Assembly: GCA_022821725.1 (NCBI GenBank)
Contig: JAJEDB010000022.1
Location: forward strand, 1-64,000
Length of the DNA stretch: 64,000 nt
Direction: 5' to 3'
Source of the DNA: Candidatus Poribacteria bacterium
GTDB lineage: Bacteria > Poribacteria > WGA-4E > WGA-3G
In this document: positions 23,941 to 46,630 of the stretch, in pieces
How the letters are laid out: each line of letters opens with the position of its first letter
Position numbering within the stretch: the stretch's first letter is position 1
Notes under the pieces: model-generated
The model's input: the letters and a program-made list of their open reading frames with translations, nothing else
What the model was told of the DNA's origin: nothing
Databases searched by the model: none
Program-made: the position numbers and the translations under genes

Positions 23941-24030
23941 AGGACTTACGCAAAATGACCAAATTTCACCTATTTTCACAGGATTCGGTGCGGTTAGAAA
24001 CCGCACCTACCGGGGGAGAGCGTAAGTCCT
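23941..24030. repeat. family A inverted-repeat element, 90 bp, with nested core palindrome
   Basis: Perfect terminal inverted repeats AGGACTTACGC (23941-23951) and GCGTAAGTCCT (24020-24030) enclose the core palindrome GGTGCGGTT ... AACCGCACC. A second member of exactly the same length is at 45573-45662. It encodes nothing and looks like a MITE-type element. Confidence 0.85.
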
Positions 24031-26304: not shown

Positions 26305-27318
26305 ATGAACTATAGCCAAGTCTTGAATGAGTTGGAAACCTTAGTTAATGAAACCTTCGCACTTTGGGAACACAACCGCGTCGGTTTCCAGTGGCGGCAC
26401 TATACATGGAACCACACCATGCGTGTGCGTGCGCTGGGCATGGAACTCGGTAAACGGGAAGGTGGAGACGTGAAGCTGCTGGAAGTCGCTGGTACCCTGC
26501 ACGACATCACCAAGCGATACGACGGTATTATCTTGACGGACGACAATGGGCAACGGATTCTTGATCATAACGGATTCTGGTTAAACGAGACCCTTACCCC
26601 CGCGGGTCAGAACATCATTACTGAGCTTTACAACAAGCACGAGCTCCACGGCAAGGTCCATCACGAATCCGGAGCGGTCATTACCGAGAACATCTTGGCG
26701 ATGTACGATTTCGATCCAGATTTCGTCCAAGCCGCAACAGCCGTTGTCCTCGCGCACCTAAAACCGATGAACCTCACAGCAGAGGACTTTAAACTGCTCT
26801 ATAACAGGATCGAAAACCAAATCCTCTACGATGCGGACACAATGGACCCGAACGTCGGCTATACCGCGTTCTTCCGAAACATCCACATCCACTCGCATTT
26901 CGCACTACAACGTGGGAATTTTGACCTCGAAGATTACGTCCGAAATCTGCCACGCTGGATTAATTCCAAACAGGAATTCGTCGATAAACTCCTGACAGAG
27001 TCTTCTCGCGAAGTCGCCCAAGCCCGACAGGACAGGAACCAGCATCTTTTCTTGCAAATGGTAGATGAATTAGACGACATGGAGATAAACCGTAAATACG
27101 GATTGTTGGGTGTGATTGAGTATTTCGTCAGTGAAACTGAGGATCCTCACTTCCTGAACCAACTGAACCATTTGAAAAACGAGTGGCTCCCACAACGACA
27201 ACAGTGGCTCGCTGAAGAGGCGCAGGACGCATCGGCACGCGACCGTGCCCAAGCCGCGATTGATCGGGTTGACGATTTCCTGAGCCTCATGACCCGCGAA
27301 AGTAACGGTGAAATTTAA
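26305..27318 (+). CDS. HD-domain phosphohydrolase
   Basis: This 337-residue protein has the metal-binding HD motif near residue 67 (GTLHDITK), an upstream His in WNHTMRV and a later His at AHLKPMN, as in HD superfamily phosphohydrolases. The C-terminal third is helical (RDRAQAAIDRVDDFLSLM). Substrate may be a nucleotide or other phosphoester; not readable. The following PhyH gene begins 10 bp after the stop with its ribosome binding site overlapping the end of this gene, so the two are very likely co-translated. Confidence 0.8.
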   Translation: MNYSQVLNELETLVNETFALWEHNRVGFQWRHYTWNHTMRVRALGMELGKREGGDVKLLEVAGTLHDITKRYDGIILTDDNGQRILDHNGFWLNETLTPAGQNIITELYNKHELHGKVHHESGAVITENILAMYDFDPDFVQAATAVVLAHLKPMNLTAEDFKLLYNRIENQILYDADTMDPNVGYTAFFRNIHIHSHFALQRGNFDLEDYVRNLPRWINSKQEFVDKLLTESSREVAQARQDRNQHLFLQMVDELDDMEINRKYGLLGVIEYFVSETEDPHFLNQLNHLKNEWLPQRQQWLAEEAQDASARDRAQAAIDRVDDFLSLMTRESNGEI

Positions 27319-27328
27319 GGAGTTTAAC

Positions 27329-28192
27329 ATGGATACGCCAAGGACAAGCGAACAGGCAGACATCGCCCAAATCCCATACCCACTCGACCTGTATCGGTTT
27401 GACACAGCTGCCGAAGGAATAGCCGGTGGGTTTTCAGCCGTAACCGATGCAGACATCGAATACTTTCATCAAAACGGCTATCTCGTCATCAATGATGCCT
27501 TCAGTGCCACCGAAATCGAAGCGGCATTGGCAGGCATGATTCATCTTATGGACGGAAAGTGCCCCGATTTTCGGGCGATCCAATTTGAACCGAAACTCGT
27601 CAAACAAAAGGACGCACTGGAAGGGCAGGAACGCCGCGATGCCATCAGAAAAATCTTCAATTTTGTAGACTATGAACCGCGTCTGAACGCGATGGCAGTC
27701 CATTCAGGACTTCTCGGTGTTCTCGAACAAATGATGGGGGATACGCCTGAACTGTTCCAAGACATGGCACTCGTCAAACCGCCGCGTTATGGGTCAGAAA
27801 AGCCGTGGCATCAGGATTGTGCCTATTTTAACCTACCGGAAGGAACAACGGTCGTCGGGGTATGGATCGCTTTAGATGAAGCCACGGCTGAAAACGGATG
27901 CTTACACGTCATCCCGGGTTCAAATATCGAGGGCCCGATGATCCACTTCAAACGGCGAGATTGGCAGATTTGCGATACGGATGTCCCCGTAGGGCGGGAT
28001 ACGATGGTGCCGCTTAAGCCGGGGGGATGCCTTTTCTGGCACGGTTTGACCCATCACGGCAGCCCTGCCAACCAATCGGAACAGCGACGGCGGGCCTTAC
28101 AACTCCATTACAAACCCGCGAGTGTCGGAGAGATTACAACACAGGAACGGATGGATGTTTACGGTAGCGAAGGGAAAGAGGTGGATTGTTGA
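27329..28192 (+). CDS. phytanoyl-CoA dioxygenase family protein, copy 2
   Basis: This 287-residue Fe(II)/2-oxoglutarate dioxygenase starts at the ATG at 27329 (AAGGAGTTTAAC just upstream); the earlier GTG at 27308 lies inside the HD gene. Iron ligands are His and Asp in PWHQDCAYF and His in THHGSPANQSEQRR, whose Arg pair would bind 2-oxoglutarate. ENGCLHVIPGS is a typical family block. Copy 1 at 21091 is only a distant relative. It is coupled to the HD gene. Confidence 0.88.
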   Translation: MDTPRTSEQADIAQIPYPLDLYRFDTAAEGIAGGFSAVTDADIEYFHQNGYLVINDAFSATEIEAALAGMIHLMDGKCPDFRAIQFEPKLVKQKDALEGQERRDAIRKIFNFVDYEPRLNAMAVHSGLLGVLEQMMGDTPELFQDMALVKPPRYGSEKPWHQDCAYFNLPEGTTVVGVWIALDEATAENGCLHVIPGSNIEGPMIHFKRRDWQICDTDVPVGRDTMVPLKPGGCLFWHGLTHHGSPANQSEQRRRALQLHYKPASVGEITTQERMDVYGSEGKEVDC

Positions 28193-28268
28193 GTATTCGT
28201 CATCGGTTGTCGGTTAAGAGGGTATCGTTAAAGGAACACCTCTTTACTGACTGCTGAAAGGTTTTTCG

Positions 28269-28300
28269 TATGAAGATTAATTTTTTAATTTGGTAATTTC
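28269..28300. repeat. solo IS630-type terminal repeat
   Basis: A sequence beginning ATGAAGATTAATTTTTTAAT and ending GGTAATTTCC closely matches the left end of the intact IS element that starts 54 bp further on (28323). It may be a scar of an earlier insertion or an end of a related small element. Confidence 0.55.
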
Positions 28301-28322
28301 CTAACGAGTCCGGTGCGGTTAG

Positions 28323-29563
28323 ATGAAGATTAATTTATTAATTCGGTAATAATCCAACATAGTGTAGCAACTCCTGTGAACCGCCTTTGAACTGTTCCAT
28401 GAAGGCGAGGACTTTTTCTTGAAGCGTCTGCCAGTTGTTGCTGAGACGATGAAGATGTATGACCGATTGACGCGCCCATCGCCACAACTTCTCAATCGGG
28501 TTGGTCCAAGAGGCATACGTCGGGAGTTGCAATATCTCAATAGGCAGTTTCGCAAGGGTGCCGATTTGCTTTGAGAGTTTGCCGGTCCAGTTGCGTGGCA
28601 CCGGTTTCGGAAATACGGTCGTCTGTGGCATCAAGGCTGCCATGAGATTGGCATGAAAGTGTATCGCCCGATTATCCTGAATGAGATAGATGCGTTCGAT
28701 GTTTGGGTAGCGTTGGCAAATGGAGGTGTAAAACGTATGCAGTGCGTTGACGGTACAGCGTTTCACCTGCTGGTAAACGACATCTCCGGTGTGTAGGCTC
28801 AGGGCACCAATGCCATAACACACCTCTTGCTGACGATAACTTTGACGTGCCAAGGGCGTCTTGGTGCCGGTCTGTGCCCAGTCTTTTGCCACGGTCGGTT
28901 GGAGATAGAAACTAAACTCATCTTGGTAAAGCACAACGCAGGTCTCTGGCGTCTCACGGGCTTCTTCTAAAACTTGCTGGATACGAGAGAGTTTTTCAGC
29001 ATAATCGGCATCTGGACTTCGCACATAGTCCCTGGCACGTTTATAGCTGATGCCGAGGCGTGAGAGGATTTGATGAACGCCCGGAATAGAAACATCCTGC
29101 AGCCACGGCACGACTGGACTGAGCGTGCGGAGCGTCCAGCGGGTTTGATGCCGATTGACGCGCCCCGGATCCTGACCGATCGCCGCCAAGACTTCCGACT
29201 CCGCTTCTTCAGGCGATTTCGGAGAAAAAGCCGGTTTTCGACCCCGACCCGGTTTCTGGAACAACCCACGGATGCCCTGTTTGCGATACCGACGCAACCA
29301 CTCATAGACGGTATCAGGATCGCGAGGTTTCAACAAGCCCTTGTGAGCGACTTCATGGGGAGAAGCCCCTTGATGTATTTTCAACATCGCCGTCGCACGC
29401 TCTCGCAGGTAAGCCGGTTCACCTTTATCTCGAAGGGCAACAAGTGCTTGGATTTCGGCTTCACTCAGATCGAGTGTATGGTGTTTTGCCATCGGAAAAT
29501 ACCTCCTTTTGTAGGAGGATAACATAAATAAAAATATTACCGAATTAATTTTTTAAACTTCAT
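28323..29563 (-). mobile_element. IS630-family insertion sequence, 1241 bp
   Basis: The element is bounded by inverted repeats of about 28 bp: ATGAAG ... ATTAATTCGGTAAT at 28323-28350 and its complement at 29536-29563, with only a few mismatches. One transposase gene fills it; its stop codon lies inside the left repeat. The flanks join to the two halves of the core palindrome (GGTGCGGTTAG on the left, GAAACCGCACC on the right), so the element landed in the loop of such a repeat. The usual TA duplication is not clear. Confidence 0.9.
28338..29492 (-). CDS. IS630-family DDE transposase
   Basis: This 384-residue transposase starts at the ATG at 29492 behind AAAGGAGGT, in preference to an upstream TTG/ATG. 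An N-terminal helix-turn-helix region (about 1-130) contains PDTVYEWLRRYRKQGIRGL. The DDE catalytic core has YQDEFSFYLQP, LIQDNRAIHFH and the terminal NPIEKLWRWARQ block. All three acidic residues are present and there is no frameshift, so it is probably active or recently so. The gene ends within the left terminal repeat. Confidence 0.95.
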   Translation of the reverse strand: MAKHHTLDLSEAEIQALVALRDKGEPAYLRERATAMLKIHQGASPHEVAHKGLLKPRDPDTVYEWLRRYRKQGIRGLFQKPGRGRKPAFSPKSPEEAESEVLAAIGQDPGRVNRHQTRWTLRTLSPVVPWLQDVSIPGVHQILSRLGISYKRARDYVRSPDADYAEKLSRIQQVLEEARETPETCVVLYQDEFSFYLQPTVAKDWAQTGTKTPLARQSYRQQEVCYGIGALSLHTGDVVYQQVKRCTVNALHTFYTSICQRYPNIERIYLIQDNRAIHFHANLMAALMPQTTVFPKPVPRNWTGKLSKQIGTLAKLPIEILQLPTYASWTNPIEKLWRWARQSVIHLHRLSNNWQTLQEKVLAFMEQFKGGSQELLHYVGLLPN

Positions 29564-29653
29564 GAAACCGCACCTACCGGACCTGGGAGAACATAGAATT
29601 ACCGAAATATTTAGTGAAACCTCATTAGAAAAACCGACCTGACCGCCACTACG

Positions 29654-30706
29654 CTACTTCTTTTCTTCCGGGAAGGGTGCCCGGATGTCGTAACGTCCTT
29701 CAACAAACACGGGTAACTTTCCACCTTCAACGAGAAGGTCAAGCGGGTTGGGGCGCGTTTTTAACGGGAACGTAACAACGTCTTGGAGGCGCAACGATTC
29801 ATAAATCGCCATCAAGATTTCTATCGTGCAAAGTCCATGTCTGCCAGCGTTACGGTGTTCATCAACATCACCTTCAATCCAGGCTAACATCTCATCAAAT
29901 TGATTCGGTTCACCTTGGCGAGGTTCAATCACCTGCCAGCCTGCGGTTTTGCTGTTGAGCAATTCAATCGTTCCATTTTCACCCCGACGAAGCTGCCCAT
30001 CGTCCCCGTAGACAACATCGCCGCGGAGGACGGGTTCCGGTAAATCGCTTTCGTAGATGCCGCGGATACCGTTCTCAAAGCAGATTTCCGCCATACACAG
30101 GTCTTCCGTTCTGACACGTCGCTCCCAGCGATCGGTTTTGCGTGCGACCTGACCGATGAGCCATAACGGATCGGGATCCCCGAGGATGTAACGCATCTCG
30201 TCGATTTCATGGGTGCCACGGTTCAAAAGTCCGTGTCCATCACGGCGGAGCATCGCCTGCGGCTGACCGATTGCACCTTCTTGGATGAGGCGGCGGGCCT
30301 CGCAATTCTGGGGACTGAAACGCCGCTGGTGTCCAACGACCAACTTTACATTGTGCTTGTCACAGGCCTCCATCATGTCCTGGGCATCGCCAACGGAAGC
30401 CGACATCGGTTTTTCGGTAATAACGCCGAGTACACCGTTCTCCGCAGCTGCGATCGTCGGTTCGGCACGGACGCTCTGCCACGTCGTAATACTGACGATG
30501 TCCAAATCCTCTTTCTCGCACATTTCACCGAAATCGGTATAATGGGTTGGGAGGGCGAACTCTTCTGCGAATTTCGCCGCGGATTCTGCGCTAATGTCCG
30601 AAGCCGTGACAACTTCGGCACGCCCGGTACTTGTCCAATTATTCACATGGGAACGTCCCATGCCACCACATCCAATAATTCCAATACGATATGTTTTGTC
30701 TGCCAT
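29654..30706 (-). CDS. Gfo/Idh/MocA family oxidoreductase
   Basis: This 350-residue NAD(P)-dependent oxidoreductase starts at MADKTYRIG with AAGGTGAGACAG upstream. The Rossmann motif IGIIGCGGMGRSHV, the EKPMSASVGDAQ block containing the catalytic Lys, and HQRRFSP are typical. The family oxidises or reduces sugars and cyclitols; substrate cannot be read. The C-terminal domain carries FLVEGG-like residues (LLVEGGKLPVF). It has no obvious operon partner and lies beside the IS630 copy. Confidence 0.9.
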   Translation of the reverse strand: MADKTYRIGIIGCGGMGRSHVNNWTSTGRAEVVTASDISAESAAKFAEEFALPTHYTDFGEMCEKEDLDIVSITTWQSVRAEPTIAAAENGVLGVITEKPMSASVGDAQDMMEACDKHNVKLVVGHQRRFSPQNCEARRLIQEGAIGQPQAMLRRDGHGLLNRGTHEIDEMRYILGDPDPLWLIGQVARKTDRWERRVRTEDLCMAEICFENGIRGIYESDLPEPVLRGDVVYGDDGQLRRGENGTIELLNSKTAGWQVIEPRQGEPNQFDEMLAWIEGDVDEHRNAGRHGLCTIEILMAIYESLRLQDVVTFPLKTRPNPLDLLVEGGKLPVFVEGRYDIRAPFPEEKK

Positions 30707-31143
30707 CTGTCTCACCTTGTCCTTAGTGTTAGTAAAAATTTAAATGACTTCCCCGCCAGCAATAGGCAGGATTAGAAACCCACCCAGCAAAGGCGATCGG
30801 TGTAGAAGCACATTTTAGCAAAAGTTCACCATCAAGGCAAGCGAATTGTAAGAAAAGCGAGCAATGCAAAACAGCAGTTCAGGTTAATCGATCTCATCCG
30901 CTTTCAACAAAGTAACGGTTTGTAGCAGCACAACGCATTGTGCTTTGCGTAAGTTCTGAAAAGTTCACTTACCTTTCCAATTCGTCATAACTCACTAACA
31001 TGTGTCTTTTTTGACACAATCCTTAAAACCAAAAAGCCTTATATTATCAGAGTTTGTAACAAGTAACCGATTGGCATCGTTTATGCAGGTAGGGTTAGCA
31101 CAACCCGCTATACTCGGCGACGAAAATTTGTAAGGAGACGGAA
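30707..31143. other. intergenic region upstream of murA
   Basis: No gene is visible over 437 bp. At about 30920-30957 there is a degraded half element: GTTTGTAGCAG, then the palindrome AGCACAA CGCA TTGTGCT, then TGCGTAAGTTCT, the terminal word of family A. A TATACT at 31110-31115 is a plausible -10 for murA but lacks a good -35. Confidence 0.4.
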
Positions 31144-46601: not shown

Positions 46602-46630
46602 TCGGTGCGGTTAGGAAACCGCACCTACCA
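46602..46630. repeat. core palindrome, solo or degraded copy
   Basis: GGTGCGGTTAGG followed by AAACCGCACCTACC, with the same arms as in the A and C elements. A partial TATAGTAAAGCC word upstream at about 46567 suggests a decayed family C member. Confidence 0.6.

Follow-up and report, generated by a model that had tools for sequence, protein, structure and literature searches.

The Locus and Its Question

How does an insertion sequence (IS) with an IS630-type transposase come to lie in the exact middle of a palindrome, without a TA at its edges? The question is raised by an intergenic region in a contig of an uncultured member of the Poribacteria, of which a stretch of 64,000 nucleotides (the window) was analysed. 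The genome of the window comprises 4.97 Mb in 151 contigs. Between two convergent genes recognized by domain matches, a PhyH-type gene (27308-28192, plus strand) and a Gfo/Idh/MocA-type gene (29654-30715, minus strand), there are three symmetric structures nested within one another.

The IS occupies 28323-29563 on the minus strand (1,241 bp, tips ATGAAG...CTTCAT), a boundary set from copies with differing flanks, and its outermost letters read ATGAAGATTAAT... and ...TTTAAACTTCAT. The earlier note had given its extent as 28311-29580; the element is indeed there, while its ends proper lie slightly inside those positions. The terminal inverted repeats are imperfect, with 40-nt arms (palindrome included) that are 85% complementary. 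The transposase ORF (28338-29525, minus strand) runs to 395 aa from the first ATG and is complete with no internal stop, so that the description of the transposase as intact was correct.

On either side of the IS, the halves of a core palindrome can be read directly, GGTGCGGTTAG at 28312-28322 and GAAACCGCACC at 29564-29574. The joined arms rebuild the 22-nt palindrome GGTGCGGTTAGGAAACCGCACC, as had been proposed, and the insertion point is its exact centre, AG/GA (here and below the slash stands for the element, as in GGTGCGGTTAG/GAAACCGCACC). The same 22-nt sequence occurs uninterrupted at 46604; in all, four other window sites hold an uninterrupted 21- or 22-nt form. The core palindrome was found four times in the window compared with none expected from window shuffles, and its pattern is present at 114 places genome-wide.

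The core palindrome is itself the centre of a MITE, the two parts of which (28270-28322, tip ATGAAGATTAATTTTTTAATTTGGTAAT, and 29564-29625, ending in ...GTGAAACCTCAT) were assigned from their tips and joined length. The MITE tips are of the same kind as those of the IS. Without the IS this MITE measures 115 bp, and its nearest relative (L028) has the same length and is 90% identical. These MITEs are short, non-coding and present in many copies, with a left 28-nt tip that in many is identical to that of the IS. It is most likely that the MITE is mobilised by the same transposase. Its own landing site is an outer palindrome composed of GGTTTTTC with GT (28260-28269) and TA with GAAAAACC (29626-29635); at this junction, GT/TA, the last T on the left equals the first T on the right. 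The nesting of the IS within a MITE of its own family goes beyond the earlier note.

The PhyH and Gfo/Idh gene pair is present in all 29 relatives examined, and as none of these has element tips between the two genes, the window insertion is confined to its lineage. This supports the view that the insertion is recent: an autonomous IS has recently entered the dyad of the core palindrome, which is in turn the middle of a non-autonomous MITE. The exact empty allele of the window site was absent from the 29 relatives, where the intergene contains other repeats and no matching palindrome; the empty sites that do carry palindromes were found at other loci. The position of this intergene (L233-L262) is conserved, and its shuffled short repeats (TATCGG and GCAGTCAGC types) are different in nearly every relative.

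Family and Spread of the Transposase

The transposase matches the NCBIfam model NF033545 (transpos_IS630) with 164 bits against a cut-off of 100, and carries a Pfam DDE_3 domain (71 bits, cut-off 28.6) together with helix-turn-helix domains. In an alignment of 10 relatives, D202, D284 and E345 are invariant. These residues are presumably the catalytic triad, as judged from known IS630 motifs and the extent of the DDE_3 match rather than from a structure. The predicted structure is poor (mean pLDDT 47.7), and no conclusion rests on it; a PDB sequence search with the transposase returned only two weak, chance-like matches. The family profile search gave no match to an IS1182-type transposase, and IS481 appeared only far below its cut-off. 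An HUH tyrosine transposase of the RAYT/REP or IS200/IS605 kind was absent from the profile matches, which consisted of the DDE_3 and helix-turn-helix domains only.

The element thus has a DDE_3-type transposase above the cut-offs, terminal inverted repeats around a single gene and the conserved acidic residues of the IS630 family, yet it is not inserted at TA with a 2-bp TA duplication. As the TA rule fails, it is filed as IS630-type by its transposase only and not as a canonical IS630 element.

The transposase gene is single-copy in the window’s genome. Relatives with 58-81% identity (E <=1e-60) occur in 10 of 84 genomes of the phylum, the window’s genome included, whereas the element tips are present in 36 of 38 genomes of the genus. 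The non-autonomous copies are therefore far more widespread than the gene.

Palindromes at the Insertion Points

The flanks of 91 distinct IS and MITE copies from Poribacteria genomes were compared, each copy being defined by adjacent tips and bordered on both sides by 15 nt or more of flanking sequence. The restriction to adjacent tips excludes the outer MITE of the window from this set. The loci consisted of 40 stretches from six of the 38 genomes, picked before the flanks were seen, and of loci from a tip search; 35 loci (L129-L163), in part from repeated genomes and in part from distant relatives, were left out. The tips found in the genus genomes far outnumber those sampled. The assemblies, most of them draft, all come from uncultured bacteria, and the independent events are fewer than 91 because some copies share a host repeat.

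A stem was scored as perfect pairing of the two flanks, with at most 3 nt skipped per side. Stems of at least 6 bp were present in 63 of the 91 copies, compared with 14.6% for swapped flanks and 0.76% for random points in the same loci; for stems of at least 8 bp the figures were 51 of 91, 9.3% and 0.16%. The swapped-flank null is inflated, as many copies share the core palindrome. Where the core palindrome is present on one or both sides (25 of 32 copies with a stem, 81% after swapping), this null is uninformative, as expected. Among copies without the core palindrome, 38 of 59 had a stem against 7.0% of swapped flanks. Following removal of both core-palindrome sites and redundancy, 29 of 39 copies had a stem compared with 3.5%, the maximum in 500 shuffles being 12.8%. 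The suggestion that palindromes can serve as landing sites is thereby supported, and the core palindrome is only one of the targets. A listing of the targets of other copies could have told against the suggestion; these are mostly unrelated palindromes, and copies with no link to a palindrome do not prevail.

The stems vary by site, with 28 distinct inner 6-mers. There are G+C-rich stems (GGCGCGCTT, CCCCCGACT) and terminator-like stems (GATACTTTTT, GGATTTTTT). Of the nine full-length IS copies for which both ends are present, seven are inserted in palindromes, and most of these differ in sequence: GGTGCGGTT in the window, GGCGAGGTT (L086), CCGCAAACT (L088), AATGCC (L089), CACAAACT (L090), TCACCCC (L091) and AATTATT (L092). 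A search of eight loci against Rfam returned nothing but a tRNA in one flank.

A stem of 6 bp or more is missing from 28 of the 91 copies, including the full-length copies L105 and L128, and a number of the 28 show shorter or imperfect stems. The genome of L105 also holds two defective copies whose right flanks are complementary to the left flank of L105 (AGTCCC), and one of them has a left flank complementary to the right flank of L105. Either recombination among copies or an assembly error would account for this pattern, although it is suggestive only, and some of the 28 copies may be recombinants. In one Poribacteria chromosome (OY282386), the flanks of L105/L135, L138 and L141 pair between IS copies and not within them, as if the copies had been recombined or misassembled. 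Three separate loci (L084, L171, L172) have the same half of a palindrome on the left, GCAAACTGT, and on the right an identical flank that does not match it, TTATGGTAAA; the whole may be a composite that moves together.

The palindrome arms have no consensus. The innermost stem base of the 5′ arm is T in 45, C in 18, G in one and A in none of 64 flank readings, and the base next inward is C in only one of 64. The sequence is therefore not wholly irrelevant, as this weak preference for T or C (63 of 64) indicates. It could be argued from these counts that the transposase reads a short symmetric duplex sequence, approximately Y-D-N-H-R at the insertion point, and that long palindromes are enriched as symmetric half-sites and not through extruded hairpins. 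Mariner-type transposases do bend DNA and flip bases at a symmetric site (PMC5481204). However, a rule of five nucleotides has no need of the 6-16 bp of perfect arm pairing that is seen beyond them, and as the arms lack a consensus, the two would need to pair with each other although the transposase reads neither. We regard this explanation as unlikely.

The position of the element within the palindrome is equally exact. When the assumed centre was slid along the joined flanks, a centred stem was obtained for 63 copies at offset 0, 22 at -1 and 21 at +1, and for 0 or 1 copies at each of the other offsets from 2 to 12 nt. The insertion point and the middle of the palindrome are no more than 1 nt apart, and the offset profile shows that the element is placed at the dyad with single-nucleotide precision. 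This profile bears on the idea of a survival effect, whereby insertions would be scattered and tolerated only in intergenic hairpins. The window copy does lie between two convergent genes and several targets resemble terminator hairpins (L015, L028, L200), but selection for intergenic sites does not fix the dyad to the nucleotide, and the near absence of copies at offsets of 2 nt or more makes the idea very improbable.

Empty Sites

Empty sites were sought for eight of the 91 sites, of which L118, L018, L039, L169 and L214 were informative and L016, L195 and L200 uninformative. For L118, on contig C116 of the window’s own genome, there is an element-free ortholog in genome G016 (L263) with 97% identity over 260 bp. 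It carries the palindrome and is exactly 1 nt shorter at the junction. For L018, the empty orthologs L267 and L269 (genomes G052 and G038) have intact GGCGAGGTT...CCTCGCC palindromes. L039 lies in a dispersed repeat, of which all five empty copies (L323-L327) read CCGCTCC-AGC-GGAGCGG, exactly 1 nt shorter than the occupied CCGCTCCAG/GCGGAGCGG.

Uninterrupted sister palindromes also adjoin the occupied ones at L124 and L039. At L124 the sister, 45 bp away, reads GCACTCC-GCT-GGAGTGC compared with the occupied GCACTCCGC/CTGGAGTGC. The 25 dispersed relatives of L169 show no length difference in 18 cases, one nucleotide longer in five, three longer in one and one shorter in one. One of these relatives, L330, carries the same palindrome without interruption and does not differ in length, which shows that a duplication of 0 bp also occurs. 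The relatives of L214 have the palindrome with different loops.

These sites decide between target and element. The palindrome halves might be taken for the outer part of the element’s own terminal repeats, travelling with it, as many copies in the window’s genome have the same GGTGCGGTTAG and GAAACCGCACC beyond their tips and the inverted repeat is continuous over 40 nt. Yet identical 28-nt tips are followed outside by quite different palindromes, palindromes also occur without the element, and the empty sites L263, L267, L269 and L323-L327 carry them, which leaves this explanation barely credible. An inverted target duplication, in which the palindrome is the product of insertion, would yield any stem sequence and a central position with no recognition rule, but it can practically be dismissed given the full palindrome already in the empty sites of L118, L018 and L039 and the sister palindromes at L124 and L039.

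At the empty-site pairs of L118 and L039 both arms are kept, and a hairpin deletion of the IS1272 kind is absent there. The Poribacteria clade lands within 1 nt of the centre of many unrelated palindromes which existed beforehand, retains both arms and does so without TA.

Duplication of the Target

The window copy has no TA duplication (AG/GA). This absence, which had seemed odd for the family, is general for the clade, and in many copies a 1-bp central duplication is found instead. TA/TA occurs at none of the 38 non-core palindromic sites, and any 2-nt match across the element is limited to six of the 91 copies.

In the commonest register, with two unpaired bases per side (2,2), equal bases flank the element in 32 of 33 copies. 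Counted as distinct stem and loop combinations this becomes 24 of 25, compared with 25.6% for swapped flanks. Such equality is expected when the central base of an odd palindrome is duplicated (1 bp), and all four bases occur as the duplicated base. A one-base lopsided register is found in 18 copies, nine of which are TG/CA; the duplication is not visible there, and the TG/CA flanks fit 0 bp. Cleavage of each strand directly behind the first base of the loop was considered as a rule; loops of 3 nt and 2 nt agree with it, but the TG/CA class does not, and the rule was dropped.

For the window copy two values come into question. The nearest MITEs have the 4-nt loop AGGA (22-nt form) in six of seven cases, the other being of the 21-nt type. 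A loop of AGGA would mean 0 bp, and an origin from the AGA (21-nt) form would mean 1 bp; the two cannot be separated. In a repeat family with AGGACTTACGCA ends, the 3-nt loop AGA is present in each of the four matched core palindromes that are uninterrupted, and the single matched copy that is occupied reads AG/GA, which fits 1 bp. Overall, odd palindromes with a 3-nt loop gain a 1-bp central duplication and at least one even palindrome gains none.

Repeats That Carry the Palindromes

The repeat family just mentioned has ends AGGACTTACGCA... and ...TGCGTAAGTCCT (window positions 23941 and 45573; L042, L051) and holds the core palindrome in its middle, from which it follows that this palindrome is common to several unrelated small repeats. 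In the window’s own genome (L003-L080), the core-palindrome copies are mostly in one orientation, with GGTGCGGTTAG before the ATGAAGATTAAT tip, and are rarely reversed (L012, L080). Such one-sidedness is not predicted by a symmetric target and may reflect the spread of composite units.

The L169 family (L297-L318, L328-L330) is a dispersed repeat in which a hairpin is enclosed by conserved flanks, GTGATAGACC...CTTCTGC. The arms of this hairpin vary greatly and stay complementary, as in CCCCCGACT/AGTCGGGGG, CCCCGCCCT/AGGGCGGGG and CCCAAGTCT/AGACTTGGG. Three members tested against Rfam (L330, L328, L298) had no match. The family looks like a fast-changing element constrained by pairing.

Proposed Mechanism

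We consider it quite probable that a clade of the IS630/Tc1-mariner type inserts at the dyad of pre-existing palindromes with a stagger of 0-1 bp, probably through extruded hairpins or cruciforms. The transpososome would recognize the extruded hairpin or cruciform, or possibly a palindrome bent at its dyad. Each 3′ end of the transposon would then be joined to a loop, at positions that are symmetric on the two strands. This could give a stagger of 0-1 bp in place of the 2 bp at TA that is usual in the family, as the two loops of a cruciform lie at one map position and a near-zero stagger results.

In the canonical family, as reported for Mos1, the TA is sharply bent and bases are flipped (PMC5481204). 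From this, a preference for DNA that is already bent or unpaired would, in our reading, be a short evolutionary step. The same study gives a range of staggers of 2-9 bp for DDE/D recombinases (PMC5481204), and the 0-1 bp of the Poribacteria elements falls below this stated range.

A wider proposal, towards which we lean with some reserve, is that a clade of the Tc1/mariner superfamily has exchanged recognition of TA for recognition of DNA shape, so that it uses the tips of hairpins or cruciforms of almost any sequence with a 0-1 bp stagger, and that the palindromes borne by MITEs seed nesting. As the MITEs carry palindromes in mid-element, each insertion creates a new landing site, and nested elements accumulate as in the window. 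If this is true, the choice of target can change within one fold, and in a group that includes textbook TA inserters and common genome tools. IS1182 would be joined by a second family in which structure-guided DDE transposition can be put to the test, the elements would act as natural probes of hairpin and cruciform formation in living cells, and the growth of nested palindrome and MITE clusters between Poribacteria genes would be explained.

Comparison with Known Systems

The Poribacteria element resembles the IS630/Tc1-mariner elements (IS630, ISY100, Mos1) in transposase sequence, element size, terminal repeats and the possession of one transposase gene. Early IS630 work by Tenzen and others is said to have described a CTAG target. 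ISY100, of the IS630 family, is reported to enter TA almost without exception and to duplicate these 2 bp (PMC2170065), and for the family as a whole a strict TA target and a stagger of 2 bp are described (PMC5481204). Unlike these, the Poribacteria clade shows no TA duplication at its palindromic sites; its target is the dyad and its duplication 0-1 bp. The 33%-identical Poribacteria relative L144 sits in CCTA/TAGG with a classical TA duplication, which suggests that only the closer clade has given up the use of TA. Among more distant relatives, which are single copies where tip and target are inseparable, L136 and L139 show no clear palindrome and L151 a probable one (GGGCCC).

A second group for comparison comprises the ISs that target REP sequences (ISPsy8, ISPa11, ISPpu9/10, ISRm19, ISRm22). 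They lie in palindromes that occur dispersed, in some cases precisely on the axis of symmetry, and each uses one REP sequence with a fixed consensus (PMC1525189). The Poribacteria elements differ from these published descriptions in using many unrelated palindromes.

The literature searched, with most subscription journals outside it, contained no IS630 element described as targeting palindromes, nor a dyad-centred, sequence-tolerant insertion with a 0-1 bp stagger by an IS630-type transposase.

The nearest known behaviour is that of IS1272, which with TnSha1 belongs to the IS1182 family of staphylococci. Published work on the two describes targets that are inverted repeats or hairpins of varied sequence, often terminators, without an ordinary target duplication, and proposes a structure-dependent DDE transposition; the insertion removes all or part of the hairpin by blunt cuts (PMC5678879, PMC4923244). 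Like IS1272 and TnSha1 as described there, the Poribacteria element targets hairpin-type repeats of varied sequence; unlike them, it belongs to another family, keeps both arms and inserts at the dyad. The novelty is an element that is IS630-type by its transposase, yet fails the TA rule of its family.
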